Made by a program: the position numbers and the translations under genes
Notes under the pieces: generated by a model
What the model was told of the DNA's origin: nothing
The model's input: only the letters and a program-made list of their open reading frames with translations
Databases searched by the model: none
NCBI RefSeq assembly: GCF_022749195.1
Contig: NZ_CP094226.1
Span: 1,266,001 to 1,330,000, forward strand
Source: Streptococcus oralis
GTDB taxonomy: Bacteria > Bacillota > Bacilli > Lactobacillales > Streptococcaceae
DNA length: 64,000 nucleotides
Direction of reading: 5' to 3'
In this document: piece after piece, positions 2,943-39,512 of the stretch
How positions within the stretch are numbered: the first letter of the stretch is position 1
How the letters are laid out: the number at the start of each line of letters is the position of its first letter

Positions 2943-5900
2943 TTAGTTTCTTCCGAAGTTTTGACCTCTACCATCGCGGTCAAAATACATCCAACTTCCA
3001 TCTTCAAGTTGAATCCATTTGCTTCGAGCCATATCCCCTGAATTGACATCGAAATATCGACTCACTCCATTCACATCAACAACTTTTCCTTTGACTTGCT
3101 TGCCGTCTTGCGTGAAATAGAGAGTCTGTTGACCAACCTGCTGCAAGCCTGTCACTGCTTTTCCAGCTTGATCAAAATAGTACCACTCATTTTGGGAACC
3201 TTCGACAAACTTGTTGGTTGCCATCTCTCCTGAGTTAGCATCAAAGTAACGGATACTCTTATCTGAAAGTGTCACGATTTTACCCTTGACTTGCTTGCCA
3301 TCTTGGTCAAAGTAAAGTGTTTGTTTGCCAATCTTTTGAAGGCCTGTCACTGCTTTTCCAGTTTGGTCAAAGTAATACCATTCGTTCTTGGCACCTTCTG
3401 CAAACTTGCCGACTGCCATTTCTCCCGAGTTGGCATCAAAGTAACGGATGGATTTATCAGCCAAAGTTACTACTTTACCCTTGACTTGTTTACCATCTTG
3501 GTCAAAGTAAAGTGTTTGTTTGCCAATCTTTTGAAGACCTGTCACTGCTTTACCAGCTTGGTCAAAGTAATACCATTCGCTCTTGGCACCTTCTGCAAAC
3601 TTGCCGACTGCCATTTCCCCTGAGTTGGCATCAAAGTAACGGATACTCTTATCTGAAAGTGTCACGATTTTACCCTTGACTTGCTTGCCATCTTGGTCAA
3701 AGTAAAGTGTTTGTTGACCAATCTTTTGAAGACCTGTCACAGCAACTCCATCTGCTCCGAAATAGTACCAATCACTTGGGTTATCACCCTGAGCAAAACG
3801 ATTAATAACAGCATTTCCTGAATCCTTGTCAAAGTAACGAAGTTTGCCATCCTTAGCACTCACAATCTTGCCCTTAACCTGATAGCCGTTTTCATCAAAG
3901 AATTGCTGTCCATCTCCTATCTTGACAAGACCTCGAGCCATAACGCCCTTGGCATCAAAGTAACGCCAGTTTTCACCATCAGTAGTGTAGTAACGGTTGA
4001 GAACTTGGGCACCAGTTTGATCATAGTAGTACTGATTACCGTTTTCATCTTCACGGATAGAATCACGAAGTTGAATACCACTCTTCAAGAAATAAACGTG
4101 CTTGCCATCAATTTCATGAGCACCTGTTACAAGATAACCTCGTTTATCGAAGTAATACCAATTTCCATTTTCATCTTGGATAAAGGAATTTTTAGCTTGA
4201 TAACCACTAGTTGAATAGAACTTAGTACCATTGGCATCACTAACAAATCCTGTGTAAGCATTCTTATTAACTAATTGCTTAGGCAATACTATCTCGCCAT
4301 TTTTGTTAGTGAGGTAGTCGTTGCTAGCCCAGTCTTTAAGAACATAGTAAGCACCACGACCTAAGATATTGGTACCATTGAAGTACTTAGCCGACCACTT
4401 GGTAATCTTCTCATCTGTTGTCATCTTTTGACCATTGGAAATCTGTACTCGTTCAAAGATTTCTGGATATTTAGCTTTAAGCTCATCCAAGTAGGCTCCA
4501 CCGTACTTACCTTGGAAATCAGTCCCATTGGTCTTACTATTAGCTACATAGAGTTTTTCCTTGATTTCTGAACCTTCACGGTAGGTTCCATAGTTATTGA
4601 CACGTGTTGCTGTTACCACTTCCTTACCTGGTAGGTTATAGATTTGGTCTGGTACCCAGTCCGCGATGGCTTGGATATTGACACTGTGAAGCGCACGGAG
4701 AGCATTGAGCAAATCTTTTAAAGAACCATATTTATTGTTCTTGCTCATCGCCATATCGTAGCGGTCTTCAAAGGCATAACCATTCTGAATGATAGAATCC
4801 AAGAAAGTACCGTCTTGGCTAGATACATACTGAGGTGGTAGCTCAAATGAAGTTACTCCCCATTCCTTGAAGAGGTTGACATTTTTAGCAATGACTTTAT
4901 TGGTATATTGGTCATCGCGGGTTGCAAAGTCTTGGAAGTTAGAAAATCCTTCGTAAATCAACTGAGAATCAAGAGCTGCGCTAGATTCATAAACTTGACC
5001 ACTAGCGTTTTTCTTCTTGCTTGCTGTTGTACGAGCATCCTGATCTGCCTTAGCGCCAACTGGTACCCAAACAGCCAGATATCCAGAAACTTGGACATTG
5101 CTGTAGCCTGCGATATCATTCATATCAAAGGTCAAAATACCATTAGCATCTGTCTTCTTCCAGAGCGATTGTGGCACTTCTTCGTCAGTTAGATAGCGGG
5201 AAATGCCATCTTTGGTCGTCAAAAGTACAGGGCGATAGTATTGATTCTTGTGGGCTGCTCCCATATTGACTTGCAGTTTATCCCATACATTTAACTTGAG
5301 GTTAGGGTTGTTTGAAGCAATAACTGCCATCCCTTGAGTACGAGTTTCTGCTGTTCCTTCATCTGTTGCTTCATTGGCACCAGTACCGTAGCGAACAGAC
5401 GTTAAAATACCATTGTAAGACCATTTATCAGCCTCACGAGGTACACCCATATATGTGACTTTCATGTCTTGTCCACCTGCTACATACTTAATACGAGCAC
5501 GCAGCAAGGCATCAATAGCATCGTGGTAAGGAGATTTTTTCTCCATGTATTGACCATCATCGGTATAGAGGTCACCATAGTAGACCCGAGTGATAGAGTC
5601 TTTATTGGAGAGCATGAGAGCATGAGCGGTTGGGATATTGAACTGCGTATACTTCTTGTCTGCCTTACGCATATCTTCGTTATAGATCTTGAAGGCTTGC
5701 TTGAGTTCATCCATAGTAAAGGTCAAACCATCCGTATTTGGATTGATATTTTCTCGGATGATGTCAGCAATAACGGTTTGTACTTCACTGTCATGAGCCC
5801 GCACAAAGATATAGTTAGCCATTCGTTCGCCATTTTTCTTTTCAGAAGAACGGTCATTTAGACTATTTGTAATCGTAGGTTCTACTCCGCTACGGATAGA

Positions 5901-34243: not shown

Positions 34244-34900
34244 TTAAAGGACTTTAGCAGAGGTATGAGTGATCTCCTCCACTTGAATTCCTTCTTTTTC
34301 AAACTTTTCCTTTAATGAAGTCAAATCGATTTTTCCATCAATTTGAACTTCGATGACGACCTTACCATCCTTACGTGGAATGTTAACAGTATGGGAAATA
34401 TTTAAATCCTCTTCAACGATTAGAGCTACAATTTTTCCCAGTACTCCGACTTCATTTTCTGTAATGAAACGAACACGAATCCCCTCTTCTCCGTACCCAG
34501 CGATTTCCAAGAAAGCCTGAAAAACATCGCGATCTGTAATGACGCCGTAGACCTGATGATTGTCTACGACTGGTAATATCCCAATCTTATTTTTCAGCAT
34601 CAGGTAGGTCGCATCTTCTAAACTAGCATAGCCAGAAACAGTCACGACATCTCGAATCATTACATCTTTTACTTTGGTTTTATTCAGAAGATAATTCATC
34701 TCATAGATAGAGAGACTGGTTGCTTTAGATGGGCTGGCTTCCGCAATGGTTCCTTCTGTTACCAATCCAACTAATTGATCGTTTTCGATAACAGGTAAAC
34801 GGTGCAATCCTTGCTCGCGCATCAAATCTGCTGCGTGTGCTACAGTCGTATCTGGACTGATATAAACTACCTTACGGGTCATGAAATCTTTAACTGCCAT
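34244..34900 (-). CDS. CBS-domain protein with C-terminal ACT domain (AcuB-like)
   Basis: 218-residue cytoplasmic protein. Two CBS motifs (about residues 1-60, MTRKVVYISPDTTVAHAADLMREQGLHRLPVIEND; and 75-130, KVKDVMIRDVVTVSGYASLEDATYLMLKNKIGILPVVDNH) form a nucleotide-binding Bateman module. An ACT-type domain follows (RVRFITENEVGVLGKIVALIVEEDLNIS). Relatives are called AcuB, but a role in acetoin use is not shown in streptococci. Located next to the liv branched-chain transporter in related genomes, here separated from it by the inserted fusion-kinase operon; it may sense adenine nucleotides or amino acids. Confidence 0.85.
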   Translation of the reverse strand: MAVKDFMTRKVVYISPDTTVAHAADLMREQGLHRLPVIENDQLVGLVTEGTIAEASPSKATSLSIYEMNYLLNKTKVKDVMIRDVVTVSGYASLEDATYLMLKNKIGILPVVDNHQVYGVITDRDVFQAFLEIAGYGEEGIRVRFITENEVGVLGKIVALIVEEDLNISHTVNIPRKDGKVVIEVQIDGKIDLTSLKEKFEKEGIQVEEITHTSAKVL

Positions 34901-35023
34901 GAGACTTCTCCTTCTATATTGCTACTTTTATTATACACTTTCTTAGAAAATCTATCAAACGCTTTCATCTCTTTTTCAAGATTTTGAATAATCTGAGAAG
35001 TTTGCATAAAATGCCAGTGTAAG

Positions 35024-35051
35024 TTAAAAGGGAACCGAAGTCCCCTTTCTT
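35024..35051 (-). terminator. Terminator of the fusion-kinase/permease operon
   Basis: Minus-strand stem AAAGGGGAC/GTTCCCTTT (one G-U pair) closed by a TTCG tetraloop, followed by TTTTAACTT; directly after the permease stop. Confidence 0.85.
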
Positions 35052-35052
35052 C

Positions 35053-36480
35053 TTAAATCGTAATAGTGTCTCGATCTTTTATCATATAATGTTTTAACGG
35101 GCTGAGACTAGCTAGCCAGTATAGTAAACCACCGAATAGCGCAGTAAATCCGCTACCAGTTGTGATTAAAAAGATTGGACTTTGAATCTGTGCAGTTACA
35201 GGGTTGTAGACAAAAAGTACCGCTACCAATAAGGAGATAAATACACAAGACAAGCCAACTAAGTTAAATCCTTTAGTAAATTCGTAGGCGTCATGCCCTT
35301 CAAGGAAATAGGCTGAACGCAAGTCGAGTTTTCGTTTTCTTAAGATAAAATAGTCAACAACAATCATACCAATAATTGGTCCCTGAATATAGGCGGCTAG
35401 GGAGATGAAGGATCCGAAATACTCTTCTACTCCTCCCCAGATAGTGAGTAGACTCACATAAACCATGGCAATCCAAACCATTAGTTTATAGCTTACTTTG
35501 GGCATCCCACTTTTGACAATCATACAGTTCACATATGATCCTGTCCCCTGGGTTCCAATATTGGCAAAGGCTACTAGTAGGAGACTTAAGAGAGCAAAGG
35601 CTGGGGTGCTTAGAGTTGATAGCATGGTTGTTGGATCACTTTCATAAACACCTGTTTTGGCAAACATGGCTAGAGCCATGACTCCACCTGTCGCAACGAA
35701 GAATGGAGCCACAACTCCGTATGATAAGGCTGTAGCCCAATAACCACTACGTTCTGATTTTGCCAAACGTGGTAAAACCAATGCCTGTGTAGACCAAGAG
35801 AAAGCAAAGGCAACATTTCCTTCTCCAGAGAGCATGAAGCGTTCTAATGGCGTCAAATCTCCTTGGGTGGCTGGTTGGATGTTCATAATATCCGTTATAG
35901 GAACGGCGACAAAGCAGATTCCAACGATGATGAGACCGACAATCAATAAGGCGATAACCAAGAAGCGATTGGTCCATTTAATCACTTCCGGGCCTCCAAG
36001 AGCAATGAGAGTCCCAAGAAGAACACAGAGGGTACCAAGAATAGGTGCCCATATTCCCTTGTCCAAACCAAGACCAAAATTATTTGCCAAATGAATCATG
36101 GAACTGGCAAAAAGATTAGCTGCAACAGCATACCATCCAAAGTTAGCCAAGCTAATAATGGTTGATAACAGGGCTACACCTCTTTTTCCCAGAACAGCTC
36201 TCAACCAAATCCACAAATCAATTCCATACTTAACCGCAAACAAAATAGGGAGACATTCAATAAAGACCCAGATAATGTTAAAGCTAAAAATATTTACCAA
36301 CATTTGATTAAAGGTCAAATATTGAGCTACATAAGCCCCTTGGGTATAACACCAAGTGGCAATGGCAAAACCACTTGTCGATAGAAATAGATCCCAGAAA
36401 GAGTACTGACGATCCTTATTAGTCATGGGAACAATTCCTGTTATGGTTTCTTGTTGGATATAGTCATTCATTTTAGACAT
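35053..36480 (-). CDS. NCS1-family permease (cytosine/purine/thiamine-type)
   Basis: 475-residue membrane transporter with about 12 hydrophobic segments, of the nucleobase:cation symporter-1 family: the N-terminal SFWDLFLSTSGFAIATW, the helix-1/2 segment WCYTQGAYVAQYLTF, and later GPIIGMIVVDYFILRKRKLDL. Known NCS1 members carry cytosine, purines, hydantoins, allantoin or thiamine-like compounds. Its gene begins one base after the stop of the small membrane protein and ends the operon headed by the cytidylyltransferase-kinase fusion, so it probably imports the compound that the kinase phosphorylates. That substrate is not known. Confidence 0.85.
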   Translation of the reverse strand: MSKMNDYIQQETITGIVPMTNKDRQYSFWDLFLSTSGFAIATWCYTQGAYVAQYLTFNQMLVNIFSFNIIWVFIECLPILFAVKYGIDLWIWLRAVLGKRGVALLSTIISLANFGWYAVAANLFASSMIHLANNFGLGLDKGIWAPILGTLCVLLGTLIALGGPEVIKWTNRFLVIALLIVGLIIVGICFVAVPITDIMNIQPATQGDLTPLERFMLSGEGNVAFAFSWSTQALVLPRLAKSERSGYWATALSYGVVAPFFVATGGVMALAMFAKTGVYESDPTTMLSTLSTPAFALLSLLLVAFANIGTQGTGSYVNCMIVKSGMPKVSYKLMVWIAMVYVSLLTIWGGVEEYFGSFISLAAYIQGPIIGMIVVDYFILRKRKLDLRSAYFLEGHDAYEFTKGFNLVGLSCVFISLLVAVLFVYNPVTAQIQSPIFLITTGSGFTALFGGLLYWLASLSPLKHYMIKDRDTITI

Positions 36481-36481
36481 G

Positions 36482-36667
36482 TTATTGAATTCCTCCCGTC
36501 ATTGCTAAGATAATCAAAACAAGGTTGATTAGGACTATGGAGATGATTAAAATGAAATCACTTTTTAGGAAGGGTTGAACAAACTCGTAGTTTGGTGACT
36601 CCATTTCTTCCAATCTTCTCTTTGTTTCAGTTGCTACTAAATCTTCAATTTCGGATGTCGTTTTCAT
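36482..36667 (-). CDS. Small single-pass membrane protein
   Basis: 61 residues starting MKTTSEIEDLVATETKRRLE with a charged, helical N-terminal half and one membrane helix near the end (FILIISIVLINLVLIILAM). The start at 36667 is chosen because GGAGG lies 11 nt upstream inside the fusion gene and the ATG is one base past that gene's stop; the longer frame overlaps the fusion gene by ~100 nt. I do not recognise the family. Its place between kinase and permease, one base from each, suggests an accessory subunit of the permease. Confidence 0.75.
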   Translation of the reverse strand: MKTTSEIEDLVATETKRRLEEMESPNYEFVQPFLKSDFILIISIVLINLVLIILAMTGGIQ

Positions 36668-36668
36668 C

Positions 36669-38447
36669 TTAGTTTTCCTCCAAATACAAGTCAAGGGCCA
36701 GTTGTCCATATTGTTTGGTATAGCGATACCAGATGTAGAGAAATTCACCAACTGGTTTTCCGACACTCTCCTGGAACAACGCCCACAAGAACCAATAATA
36801 TGAGGTTACTGCTACATAAGCCAAATAGTGACGTTTGGTTTTCTTATCTGGTACTTCCTGTAGATACAATTCCAGTACTTTTTCAGCATCCTCTACGGTA
36901 TAATTGGAACACGCGATAAAGGTGCCCAAATCTCCTGCTGGCTCTCCCATTCCAGAATATTCCCAATCAATCAAGCTCATTTCGCCTGCTTCATTCAACA
37001 AGAAATTAGGACTATAGGAATCTCCATGACAAAGAACAACCTGTTTCGGATCGTTCTGTAAATAATTTTTGAGAAGTGAAACAGTTTCATCCAATTCCTC
37101 GAGACCATCAAACTCGAATCGATTTCTAGCCTTCAATTTTTCTCTAAAATCATCAATCCCCTCAAATTGGTCAAAGGAATGTTCCGTTTTTTCTCCAGAT
37201 TGGTGTAACCGTCTCAAGAGGTCCATTGCTTGTGCCACATCATCCCAATTATCATAATCCAGTTGCTTAGCATTGGGAATAAATTCTGAAATTTTCCAGC
37301 CCTCATCCTTGTTCATAGCTACGAAGGTACGGTCAATCTTTAATTTTGCAGCAATTTCCATAGAAGCTGCTTCACTAGCTCGGTCGATATAATTTTCCGT
37401 TCCCCTGCCCGGATGACGGTAAACATATCTTTTTCCTAGACAGTCAAATGAAAATGATGTGTTGGTTAATCCATCTTTTAGTGGTTTGATATTGACAATA
37501 TCTGAAGCCACACACTTTAATGTCTTACAGATATTATCAATAATGGCCGAATCTGCATTTACCAAATAACGTTCATCAAATTGACGGAGTTCATCTAGTG
37601 AATCAAATTCTTTAACAATATCCGCTGAATAGTGACGAGCTTCTAAAAGGAGTTCCTTGACGTGGCGACTATAGTAATCTTCCCAAAGCTGTTCCCGATA
37701 AGGTTCGTGCTTAAACTCGGTTTCTAAAATTTCCTTGAATTTCTCGCTGAATGCGCGGTCGAAATAAACGTGCCCCACCATGGCCCAAGTATTTTCTCCA
37801 CCAATCTGGATATCAATAATCGTGTGATTCGAATCCTCTATAGCACAATATTCGTCCGTTTGACCTTCTGCAAATATCGTCGAGTAATAACCTCTATAAA
37901 TATATTGCTCAAACGGATTTTCCACAAAATAATTATCCGATGAACAAATATAAGTGTTGGAAAGTTGATTTTTAACCAACATGAGAGATGAACAGTTATT
38001 GTATTTGTAGTAATCATTATTCACTACAATTTTTACACCAGACTTCTCTGCAAGATAGAACATTTTTTCTTGAAGATAGCCTACAATAACGGTTATATCT
38101 TCTATTCCTGCTTCTTGCAGTTGTCTAATTTCCCTCTCTATCAAGCGTTCCCCCTTGACTTGAAGCAATCCTTTAGGAATTTCATAAGACAAAGGAGCAA
38201 AACGACTACTCATGCCAGCAGCCATTATAATGGCATTTTCTACTCGATAGGGTTCTAAAACTTTTTGGCCCAGTTCTGTTAAGTGAAGCTCCTCATCAAC
38301 CCACTTCTCTTCTTTCAGTTTTTTCAATAATGTGTTAATTGTTCCTAAAGATAGGTCTAACTCTTCAGCTAACTGTCTCTGAGTAAAGGTCTTTTCTTTA
38401 TGTATCAACATAAAACGCAAAAGTTTAAATTGTTTCTCTGTTAGCAT
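36669..38447 (-). CDS. wHTH-nucleotidyltransferase-kinase fusion (LicC-LicA-like)
   Basis: 592 residues in three parts. Residues 1-67 form a winged helix (TFTQRQLAEELDLSLGTINTLLKKL). Residues 70-300 form a sugar-nucleotide/CTP:phosphocholine-type nucleotidyltransferase (AAGMSSRFAPLSYEIPKGLL at 76-95, like LicC). Residues ~310-592 form a choline/ethanolamine-type kinase with the Brenner motif HGDSYSPNFLL (His474, Asp476) and metal-binding DWEYSG (Asp494), like LicA. The protein could phosphorylate a small alcohol, activate it with CTP and control its own gene. Choline is a guess from similarity. The promoter has a palindrome on the -10 box. The teichoic-acid lic1 genes are not in this window. 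Confidence 0.88.
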   Translation of the reverse strand: MLTEKQFKLLRFMLIHKEKTFTQRQLAEELDLSLGTINTLLKKLKEEKWVDEELHLTELGQKVLEPYRVENAIIMAAGMSSRFAPLSYEIPKGLLQVKGERLIEREIRQLQEAGIEDITVIVGYLQEKMFYLAEKSGVKIVVNNDYYKYNNCSSLMLVKNQLSNTYICSSDNYFVENPFEQYIYRGYYSTIFAEGQTDEYCAIEDSNHTIIDIQIGGENTWAMVGHVYFDRAFSEKFKEILETEFKHEPYREQLWEDYYSRHVKELLLEARHYSADIVKEFDSLDELRQFDERYLVNADSAIIDNICKTLKCVASDIVNIKPLKDGLTNTSFSFDCLGKRYVYRHPGRGTENYIDRASEAASMEIAAKLKIDRTFVAMNKDEGWKISEFIPNAKQLDYDNWDDVAQAMDLLRRLHQSGEKTEHSFDQFEGIDDFREKLKARNRFEFDGLEELDETVSLLKNYLQNDPKQVVLCHGDSYSPNFLLNEAGEMSLIDWEYSGMGEPAGDLGTFIACSNYTVEDAEKVLELYLQEVPDKKTKRHYLAYVAVTSYYWFLWALFQESVGKPVGEFLYIWYRYTKQYGQLALDLYLEEN

Positions 38448-38478
38448 TTCTCAGTCCTCCTGTTCAATTTTTTCTTAC

Positions 38479-38511
38479 TCATATTATAATATGAACAAGA
38501 ATAACTGTCAA
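38479..38511 (-). promoter_or_regulatory. Promoter and palindromic operator of the fusion-kinase operon
   Basis: TTGACA (38511-38506), 17-bp spacer, TATAAT (38488-38483): a full consensus promoter. The -10 box lies inside a perfect 16-bp palindrome, TCATATTATAATATGA (38479-38494). A repressor bound there would cover the -10; the winged helix at the N-terminus of the first gene product is the obvious candidate. Confidence 0.75.
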
Positions 38512-38575
38512 TTCAAATAGGGAAACAATTAGTAAAAATTAAGACCTTCTTCCCTTTCCTCAAAAACATATAAAT

Positions 38576-38602
38576 AAAAGAGCTCCTTATTCTGGAGCCC
38601 TG
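38576..38602 (-). terminator. Second hairpin terminator downstream of livF
   Basis: Minus-strand stem GGGCTCC/GGAGCTC (one G-U pair) with 7-nt loop, followed by TTTTATTT. It lies between the liv operon and the promoter of the fusion-kinase operon. Confidence 0.65.
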
Positions 38603-38650
38603 AAATATTTTATATTCTTGATAAGTAGTCGTATTAGGTGTCGCTTGGTT

Positions 38651-38811
38651 GCAATCCTTATCTGACGACTAAAAAGGTCCCCCAGACTATAGAGGGATTG
38701 CGTGCGCAATCTCCATCCACAACCTAAACTAGTCTCCCAGACTTGAGGAGATTTTCTTGCGCAATCCTCATCTGGCGACTAAAAAGGTCCTCCAGACCTT
38801 TTTAGCCACCT
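38651..38811. repeat. Three tandem 55-bp imperfect repeats at the livF 3' end
   Basis: Units begin at 38651, 38706 and 38761, each with GCAATCY and each carrying CCCAGAC or TCCAGAC at the same offset, an exact 55-bp period. Units 1 and 3 match at 34 of the first 37 bases; unit 2 is more diverged. Unit 3 includes the livF terminator and stop codon. A 7-bp inverted repeat GATTGCG/CGCAATC spans the junction of units 1 and 2. Confidence 0.8.
38772..38806 (-). terminator. Terminator of the liv operon
   Basis: Minus-strand stem CTAAAAAGGTCT/GGACCTTTTTAG around a short loop. The left arm includes the livF stop codon TAA and the right arm supplies the T-run. Confidence 0.8.
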
Positions 38812-39512
38812 AGATATGCTTTTCTGACTTCATCTGATGCTGCAAGTTCTTTTCCTGTTCCTGATAGGACAATCTTTCCTGTTTCAAGTACATAACCACG
38901 GTCAGAGATAGCGAGAGCTTTGTTAGCGTTCTGTTCAATTAGGAGAACCGTTGTTCCTTGCTTCTGAATATCTTGAATGATATCGAAAATTTCTTGGATA
39001 AAGATTGGGGCAAGTCCCATTGACGGCTCATCCAAGAGAAGGAGCTTAGGTGTAGACATGAGAGCGCGTCCCATAGCCAGCATCTGCTGTTCACCACCTG
39101 AAAGAGTTGCCGCATCTTGGTTTTTACGCTCTTCAAGACGTGGGAAGCGTGAGAAAACTTTTTTCAAGTTAGCTTGATTTTCTTCACGATTTTTCTTTAA
39201 AAAGGCTCCCATTTCTAAGTTTTCCATAACAGTCAAACCTGGGAAAACATGGCGTCCCTCAGGAACTTGTGAAAGACCAGCTGCCACGATTTTTTGCGCT
39301 GGTAGCTTTTGAATTTCTTTTCCTAAAAACTGAATTTTACCAGCACTAGGACGAACCAAACCTGAAAGGGTACGAAGAATGGTTGTTTTACCAGCACCAT
39401 TAGCACCAATCAAGGAAACAACTTCACCTTCATTAACCTCGAAACTTACATCACGAACTGCTTGGATCATACCGTAATGCACAGAGAGGTTTTCAACTTT
39501 TAACATAGACAT
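38802..39512 (-). CDS. livF: Branched-chain amino acid ABC transporter ATPase LivF
   Basis: Second ATPase of the Leu/Ile/Val importer, cytoplasmic, 236 residues, the usual LivF size. Walker A LIGANGAGKTTILRTL, signature TLSGGEQQMLAMGRALM, Walker B LLLLDEPSMGLAP and switch VLLIEQNANKAL are present. The start shares one base with the livG stop (TAATG), giving translational coupling. Last gene of livJHMGF. Confidence 0.95.
   Translation of the reverse strand: MSMLKVENLSVHYGMIQAVRDVSFEVNEGEVVSLIGANGAGKTTILRTLSGLVRPSAGKIQFLGKEIQKLPAQKIVAAGLSQVPEGRHVFPGLTVMENLEMGAFLKKNREENQANLKKVFSRFPRLEERKNQDAATLSGGEQQMLAMGRALMSTPKLLLLDEPSMGLAPIFIQEIFDIIQDIQKQGTTVLLIEQNANKALAISDRGYVLETGKIVLSGTGKELAASDEVRKAYLGG

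Follow-up and report, generated by a model that had tools for sequence, protein, structure and literature searches.

A candidate NadR-like module for the import and activation of ethanolamine in Streptococcus oralis

An inserted operon beside an intact licABC

We analyzed a 64,000-nucleotide stretch of the Streptococcus oralis contig NZ_CP094226.1 (assembly GCF_022749195.1, positions 1,266,001 to 1,330,000; termed the window, to which all coordinates without a prefix refer) that contains on its minus strand, running from 38447 to 35053, an operon of three genes. The first gene (36669..38447) codes for a fusion protein of 592 amino acids composed of a winged helix (approximately residues 1-65, 38253..38447), a LicC-like cytidylyltransferase (residues 67-295, 37563..38249) and a LicA-like kinase (approximately residues 298-592, 36672..37556). 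It is followed on the same strand by a gene for a 61-amino-acid membrane protein with one helix (36482..36667) and by a gene for an NCS1 permease (35053..36480). An initial annotation had described this gene arrangement from the DNA letters, and the arrangement is borne out by domain matches and by the catalytic residues that are kept. Specifically, the winged helix has a MarR_2 match at residues 2-53 that passes the Pfam cut-off (PF12802, 31.9 bits vs 27) and scores below the cut-off for MarR (PF01047, 21.7 vs 24.6). The fusion domains also match NTP_transf_3 and Choline_kinase, and their nearest solved relatives are LicC and LicA, so that a LicC-like transferase and a choline-kinase-like domain occupy a single chain, as in LicCA-type proteins. 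The permease meets the NCS1 family (PF02133, 70 bits vs 23.5) and falls so far under the cut-off of the nucleobase:cation symporter family TIGR00800 (63.4 bits vs 353.1) that it represents a divergent NCS1 subfamily. Relatives of the 61-residue protein precede NCS1 genes, including those at loci L118 and L074 where NCS1 does not follow the fusion, and this small protein is probably a partner subunit of the permease.

The operon is located between a CBS/ACT gene (34244..34900, minus strand) and an ABC ATPase gene (38802..39512, minus strand, an open reading frame (ORF) called from sequence) which, like the initial annotation, we take to be livF-like. These two genes adjoin with about 85-110 bases between them in all eight fusion-negative relatives examined, and homology with these relatives ends at 35010-35011 (34979 in one) and restarts between 38649 and 38709. 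The operon is therefore part of an inserted block of about 3.6 kb (35012..38650) that is missing from all eight, as expected from the earlier suggestion that it was acquired at this site. At the livF-side end of the insertion there are three 37-base units with a 55-base spacing (38651-38797), which also occur in varying register in fusion-negative relatives.

The same genome additionally contains licC, licB and licA in one run, away from the operon, along with two further genes that we take for tarJ and tarI. Since this genome retains its own intact licABC, the operon constitutes a second system, and its carrier belongs to PF02133 NCS1 and not to the EamA type of LicB. Among 284 Streptococcus genomes, the fusion is present at 80% identity or higher in 31, two of which have two copies. 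Several streptococci have tandem operon or NCS1 copies; loci with NCS1 twice, or with both fusion and NCS1 twice, are L026-L030, L050, L031, L032 and L035. L030 also has a fusion remnant by its second copy, and in genome G034 one lies close to the fusion. More distant LicC-LicA fusions of 31-35% identity occur in G200, G201, G023, G006 and similar Streptococcus, most of which begin after the winged-helix part.

The fusion family and exchange of its carriers

The fusion family occurs in both Bacillota and Actinomycetota. A single scan of genome contigs returned 374 relatives that were confirmed, and we kept the best 80. These represent 77 loci, found in streptococci, Gemella, Carnobacterium, Lachnospiraceae, Selenomonas, Eggerthellaceae and others. 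A protein search gave at least 3265 clusters at E 1e-100 or better. The aligned non-streptococcal fusions have 39-60% identity, and identity to the NCS1 protein of the window is 71-92% in 12 of 14 aligned homologues and 52% and 56% in the other two. The unit is a real, mobile and widely distributed module.

We next classed the carriers by neighboring gene cluster at 97 loci (the 77 plus 20 more), which contain 88 fusion-like ORFs of more than 480 amino acids. The neighbor is NCS1 for 44 ORFs, EamA for 19, EutH for five and EamA with EutH for one, and no carrier was found for 19, a class that may hide genes because ORFs were chosen by a simple rule. Among the 88 rows, L001 repeats the window's own locus, and L004 and L029 share coordinates and represent a single genome; for this reason the non-streptococcal counts are cleaner. 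The permease that follows a second fusion at L120 is a TIGR00908 ethanolamine permease (429.6 vs a cut-off of 381.75), and at L092 and L096 the fusion has EutH or NCS1 next to it in addition to a separate LicA-like kinase and an EamA carrier. On a tree of 64 rows the NCS1 label needs five changes, at least three of which are forced by well-supported branches, and EutH needs four; all carrier classes together need 17, a figure inflated by rows without a carrier. Together with the operator-linked carriers of several families described below, these changes indicate that the carrier was swapped repeatedly under one operator. EutH and TIGR00908 are, by family name, ethanolamine carriers, and ethanolamine is the cargo that would best fit this exchange.

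A conserved operator upstream of the fusions

An inverted repeat, GTTCA-N25-TGAAC (38462..38496), covers the -10 box of the operon promoter, which has the sequence TTGACA-N17-TATAAT with 12 of 12 consensus positions (38483..38511, minus strand). When gaps of 8-40 were allowed, 62 of 89 fusion ORFs (the 88 and that of the window) had GTTCA-N-TGAAC in the interval from -300 to +60, and although this gap range was wide, 24, 25 or 26 bases separated the arms in 68 of 72 pairs. Letter shuffles over the same 89 ORFs gave a mean of 0.87 and a maximum of 4, and the other arm orientations gave 7, 2 and 8. When the search was extended to 3.5 kb upstream with a gap of 24-26, the site was present in 73 of 86 rows with a winged helix (48 of 61 outside Streptococcus) vs 0 of 86 with reversed letters. 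The site was found within 3.5 kb upstream of neither of two fusions without a winged helix and is also missing at L053, where the winged helix scores weakly (22 bits). A chance origin of the operator was thus ruled out by shuffles, arm-orientation controls and reversed letters. The weight of this result lies in conservation only, given that the window site on its own does not reach significance (shuffling predicts 0.42 sites, and 35 of 100 shuffled windows contain one) and that the window's genome has the pattern at two places, one of them inside an 822-amino-acid ORF, vs 14 for the reversed pattern. The half-sites are 29-31 bases apart, about three helical turns, a spacing that would fit a dimer joined through its enzyme core. 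The regulation built into the fusion, as proposed in the initial annotation, therefore has a conserved predicted operator as its counterpart, which strongly supports a model in which the module would be controlled through its own operator.

The stricter pattern TGTTCA-N24-26-TGAACA occurs in 17 of 22 fusion-holding genomes (a count outside which L077 falls) vs 3 for the reversed pattern, and 13 regions were inspected: 12 around sites in seven of these genomes and one at the second site of the window's genome. The operator precedes fusions or carriers of four families, namely NCS1, LicB-like EamA, EutH and TIGR00908. Specifically, it is located before the small protein and NCS1 at L118 and before EutH at L123, in both cases unlinked to the fusion; at a second fusion with EamA at L121; and at the second fusion at L120 that is followed by the TIGR00908 permease. 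At L125 it is located at an NCS1-fusion that is divergent from a PF04464 glycerophosphotransferase-like cluster gene (family assigned from L041), and at L119 at a gene for a YidC-like/PF04464 protein. A YidC-like N-terminal part is present on large proteins at L119:5681-7738, which also has the PF04464 part, and at L041:12936-15707. Uninformative or odd sites include a VanW-like gene (L126), a weak transferase/kinase-like ORF (L127), an ornithine-cyclodeaminase-like gene opposite a separate kinase (L124) and a contig end (L128). At some sites the operator overlaps the called start, so that the true start is probably later.

The operator is also located upstream of genes at L047 (5224-7140), L051 (3003-4832) and L055 whose products combine a LicC-like transferase with a CobD-like domain. 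The best solved match of the L047 enzyme is 6oux, a 'threonine phosphate decarboxylase-like enzyme' that is presumably SMUL_1544. As described in part of a study of that protein, SMUL_1544 was proposed to make ethanolamine phosphate (PMC4585668). Such fusions could possibly provide a route from an amino-acid phosphate to a CDP-amino-alcohol that does not require uptake.

Active sites and substrate pockets

Residues were numbered on the LicA and LicC of the window's genome, with roles taken from the relevant portions of PMC4364537 and PMC6697681. Kinase catalytic residues T29, D176, N181, D194 and E196 are kept in all 44 NCS1-linked rows, and in the window the transferase keeps its metal residues D107 and E216 as well as W191. 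A loss of these residues, which would have counted against the initial annotation, was not seen. The headgroup pocket of the kinase has changed: V178 is replaced by Y in 44 of 44 and the choline-contacting glutamate E213 by C in 43 of 44 NCS1-linked rows, and Y268 is F in the window. In contrast, eight of 10 separate kinases in these loci keep E213. From the kept catalytic residues and the changes at V178 and E213, we predict that the kinase works and that its headgroup pocket is altered. The window's transferase has S at D105 and E at D192, and its cage residue W136 is Y, as it is in 43 of 44 NCS1-linked rows, vs W in 12 of 16 EamA-linked rows (the 19 minus loci L007-L009). We rejected position 136 as a clean substrate marker and regard it as a hint only, since EutH-linked rows are mixed (three Y, two W) and the rows are related. 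Judged from sequence, pocket residues alone do not tell which headgroup is used.

Damage to lic1 in genomes that carry the fusion

LicA is present in 100 of the 284 Streptococcus genomes (102 matches minus two fusion-like ones at 42%), 31 of which carry the fusion. In three of these 31 carriers licA is out of frame: G148, G235 (same coordinates as L024, Streptococcus sp. M334) and G152 (same coordinates as L025, S. mitis SK579). In G235 licB is also missing its end and licC its start. The fusion operon is full-length in G148 and L024, and NCS1 of L025 is cut by a contig end. Among the 69 fusion-less genomes only G151, an assembly that is 85% complete, has a split licA (3/31 vs 1/69, one-sided Fisher p 0.087; 3/29 vs 0/68 in good assemblies, p 0.025). 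Lic1 damage was not accepted as proof, the cases being too few and the statistics modest. A G tract is located at the licA frame change in two of the three damaged genomes, so phase variation or sequencing error is possible; a tract of differing length is present in the first 40 codons of licA in the fusion-carrying S. mitis-type genomes L131, L132 and L134, and it is short in the window's genome.

Choline-binding repeats (PF19127) were counted in 33 hand-picked genomes (14 of the 31 carriers and 19 of the 69 others with LicA). The three lic1-damaged genomes have 10, 13 and 17 matches vs 15-30 in 11 other carriers and 8-59 in 18 fusion-negative genomes (G151 left out), with p ~0.02 for each comparison. 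These low counts are only suggestive because the genomes were hand-picked and all three damaged genomes still hold repeats. In the window, several choline-binding repeats are present in an open frame of 1587 amino acids (~3015-3938).

A proposed autorepressed ethanolamine module and its alternatives

On balance, the reading we favor is that the operon codes for an autorepressed ethanolamine import-and-activation module with a NadR-like layout. The NCS1 permease and its small membrane partner would import ethanolamine, the kinase domain would phosphorylate it, and the cytidylyltransferase domain would convert phosphoethanolamine and CTP to CDP-ethanolamine. Transferases encoded elsewhere would then pass the group to surface polymers, which in streptococci would probably be teichoic acid. 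The winged helix would bind GTTCA-N24-26-TGAAC over the promoter and repress the operon, with repression set by a pathway metabolite, perhaps the CDP product, so that enzyme, sensor and repressor would be one protein. Each part of the interpretation in the initial annotation thus gains computational support, but its self-contained module would stop at the CDP-linked product, as the operon contains no such transferase.

Ethanolamine is the best-supported substrate from these comparisons and choline its main rival. A second choline system of the same architecture, route and regulation, which would produce CDP-choline as a differently regulated back-up of licABC, is unlikely on our assessment, yet several observations fit it or weigh against ethanolamine. 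The nearest solved relatives are LicC and LicA, and the LicA aromatic cage (Y197, W251 and W254) is kept in 44 of 44 NCS1-linked rows. LicB-like EamA carriers, which point to choline, neighbor 19 of the 88 fusion ORFs, and a choline-binding amidase is near the EamA-linked L075. The lic1 damage in three carriers is just as compatible with a back-up. The only public names, which occur for two of the 120 homologues among the matches listed, both read 'cholinephosphate cytidylyltransferase/choline kinase', with no other names given. Of two EutH proteins tested, that of L123 scores below the NCBIfam cut-off. The glutamate lost here is likewise retained by ethanolamine kinases, so its loss by itself does not support ethanolamine. 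Finally, phosphocholine was found in 28 of 28 Oralis-cluster strains according to passages of PMC2444020, so that the S. oralis operon would operate in addition to choline and not replace it. Evidence against choline comes from the EutH and TIGR00908 partners, the loss of a choline-contacting glutamate and the W136 to Y change, the EutH or NCS1 genes at L092 and L096 despite a complete LicA-like and EamA set, and the few choline-binding repeats in the lic1-damaged genomes. The earlier caution that the substrate may not be choline has accordingly gained ground from the carrier exchange and the changed pocket, with EamA partners keeping choline possible at least in some lineages.

Another small alcohol, such as aminopropanol, a methylated ethanolamine or a flat heterocyclic alcohol like those carried by NCS1 relatives, we consider improbable. 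It would agree with the nucleobase-like cargo that the NCS1 family name implies, with loss of the acidic residue that meets the ammonium group, with GntI and ThiK as the best NCBIfam matches of the kinase part (both below cut-off) and with the CobD-like enzyme, which could make aminopropanol phosphate. A heterocycle is hard to square with exchange among EutH, TIGR00908 and LicB-like carriers. The CobD-like enzymes also give ethanolamine less help than they might, as their CobD-like part is under the TIGR01140 cut-off of 290.55 (177.5 bits at L047, 171.3 at L051), L047, L051 and L055 are close relatives, and the operator preceded neither of two full-length unlinked cytidylyltransferase/decarboxylase-like homologues. 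Regarding regulation, 13 of 86 rows with a winged helix have no operator in the 3.5 kb upstream, and the fusion is a predicted binder of this site; in another reading the operator would belong to a different regulator, or the winged helix would be only an allosteric or dimerization part, and the enzyme would not be its own repressor. We regard this as very unlikely given that the site tracks winged-helix-bearing fusions across two phyla and several operon layouts, and given its absence from L053 and from the two fusions that lack a winged helix.

Relation to described systems and significance

Neither the operon of fusion and NCS1 nor its operator was found described in literature searches, although this is no proof that they are absent from print. 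The nearest described fusion is LicCA of Treponema denticola (Kent 2004, as cited in PMC8590670), which likewise combines cytidylyltransferase and kinase in one chain to give a CDP-amino-alcohol. It differs in being described for choline and phosphatidylcholine, and the passages of that source, by which alone the two were compared, mention no winged helix, operator or NCS1. Lic-1 (LicA, LicB and LicC) shares the logic of import, kinase and cytidylyltransferase as well as the domain folds, but has separate genes, an EamA-type LicB where NCS1 occurs here, and no regulator in the enzyme. PntC and PntC-AEPT have a LicC-like fold and, in the case of T. denticola PntC, Glu at the LicC D192 position as seen here, but they are phosphonate-specific and fused to a transaminase instead of a kinase, as far as the sections consulted describe them (PMC6697681). 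The EutH and TIGR00908 carriers, which replace NCS1 next to fusions or downstream of the same operator, belong to unrelated sequence families named for ethanolamine utilization.

The nearest described layout is that of NadR with PnuC, which has the same order of helix-turn-helix, nucleotidyltransferase and kinase, a carrier in its regulon and a role in nutrient salvage; it makes NAD from nicotinamide riboside (PMC12421817, in part), and the domains of the fusion match other families. The fusion shows the NadR domain order and has carriers in its regulon, and it lacks NMN adenylyltransferase and ribosylnicotinamide kinase domains. It would thus work like NadR and is not a member of that family. 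Trifunctional NadR is reported, in the same portion of PMC12421817, only from Enterobacterales.

Pneumococcal relatives bear wall-bound choline. In S. mitis SK598 and SK601 phosphocholine is missing and ethanolamine is in its place, and the passages of PMC2444020 on these two strains give no genetic cause. Two S. oralis subspecies are also inferred from gene content to mostly lack phosphocholine (PMC6722419, in the part available). Since phosphoethanolamine retains features recognized by the flippase TacF, as stated in a portion of PMC13385700, a swap of choline for ethanolamine can be tolerated. We tentatively propose, as a possibility rather than a probability, that the fusions are a widespread, undescribed NadR-like class combining ethanolamine kinase, phosphoethanolamine cytidylyltransferase and autorepressor, with exchangeable carriers that include an ethanolamine-carrying NCS1 with a one-helix subunit, and that in the mitis group the module provides the phosphoethanolamine of teichoic acid, renders the choline pathway dispensable and underlies the SK598 and SK601 variants.

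The operon is thus a concrete and testable candidate cause of these ethanolamine-for-choline walls, which it may explain. It is also a candidate for a second natural case, after NadR, of a single chain that serves as enzyme, sensor and repressor, and it points to a possible new NCS1 cargo. For the family as a whole, public 'choline' names may be wrong for many members, and an operator conserved over two phyla offers a means of locating the remaining parts of the pathway.

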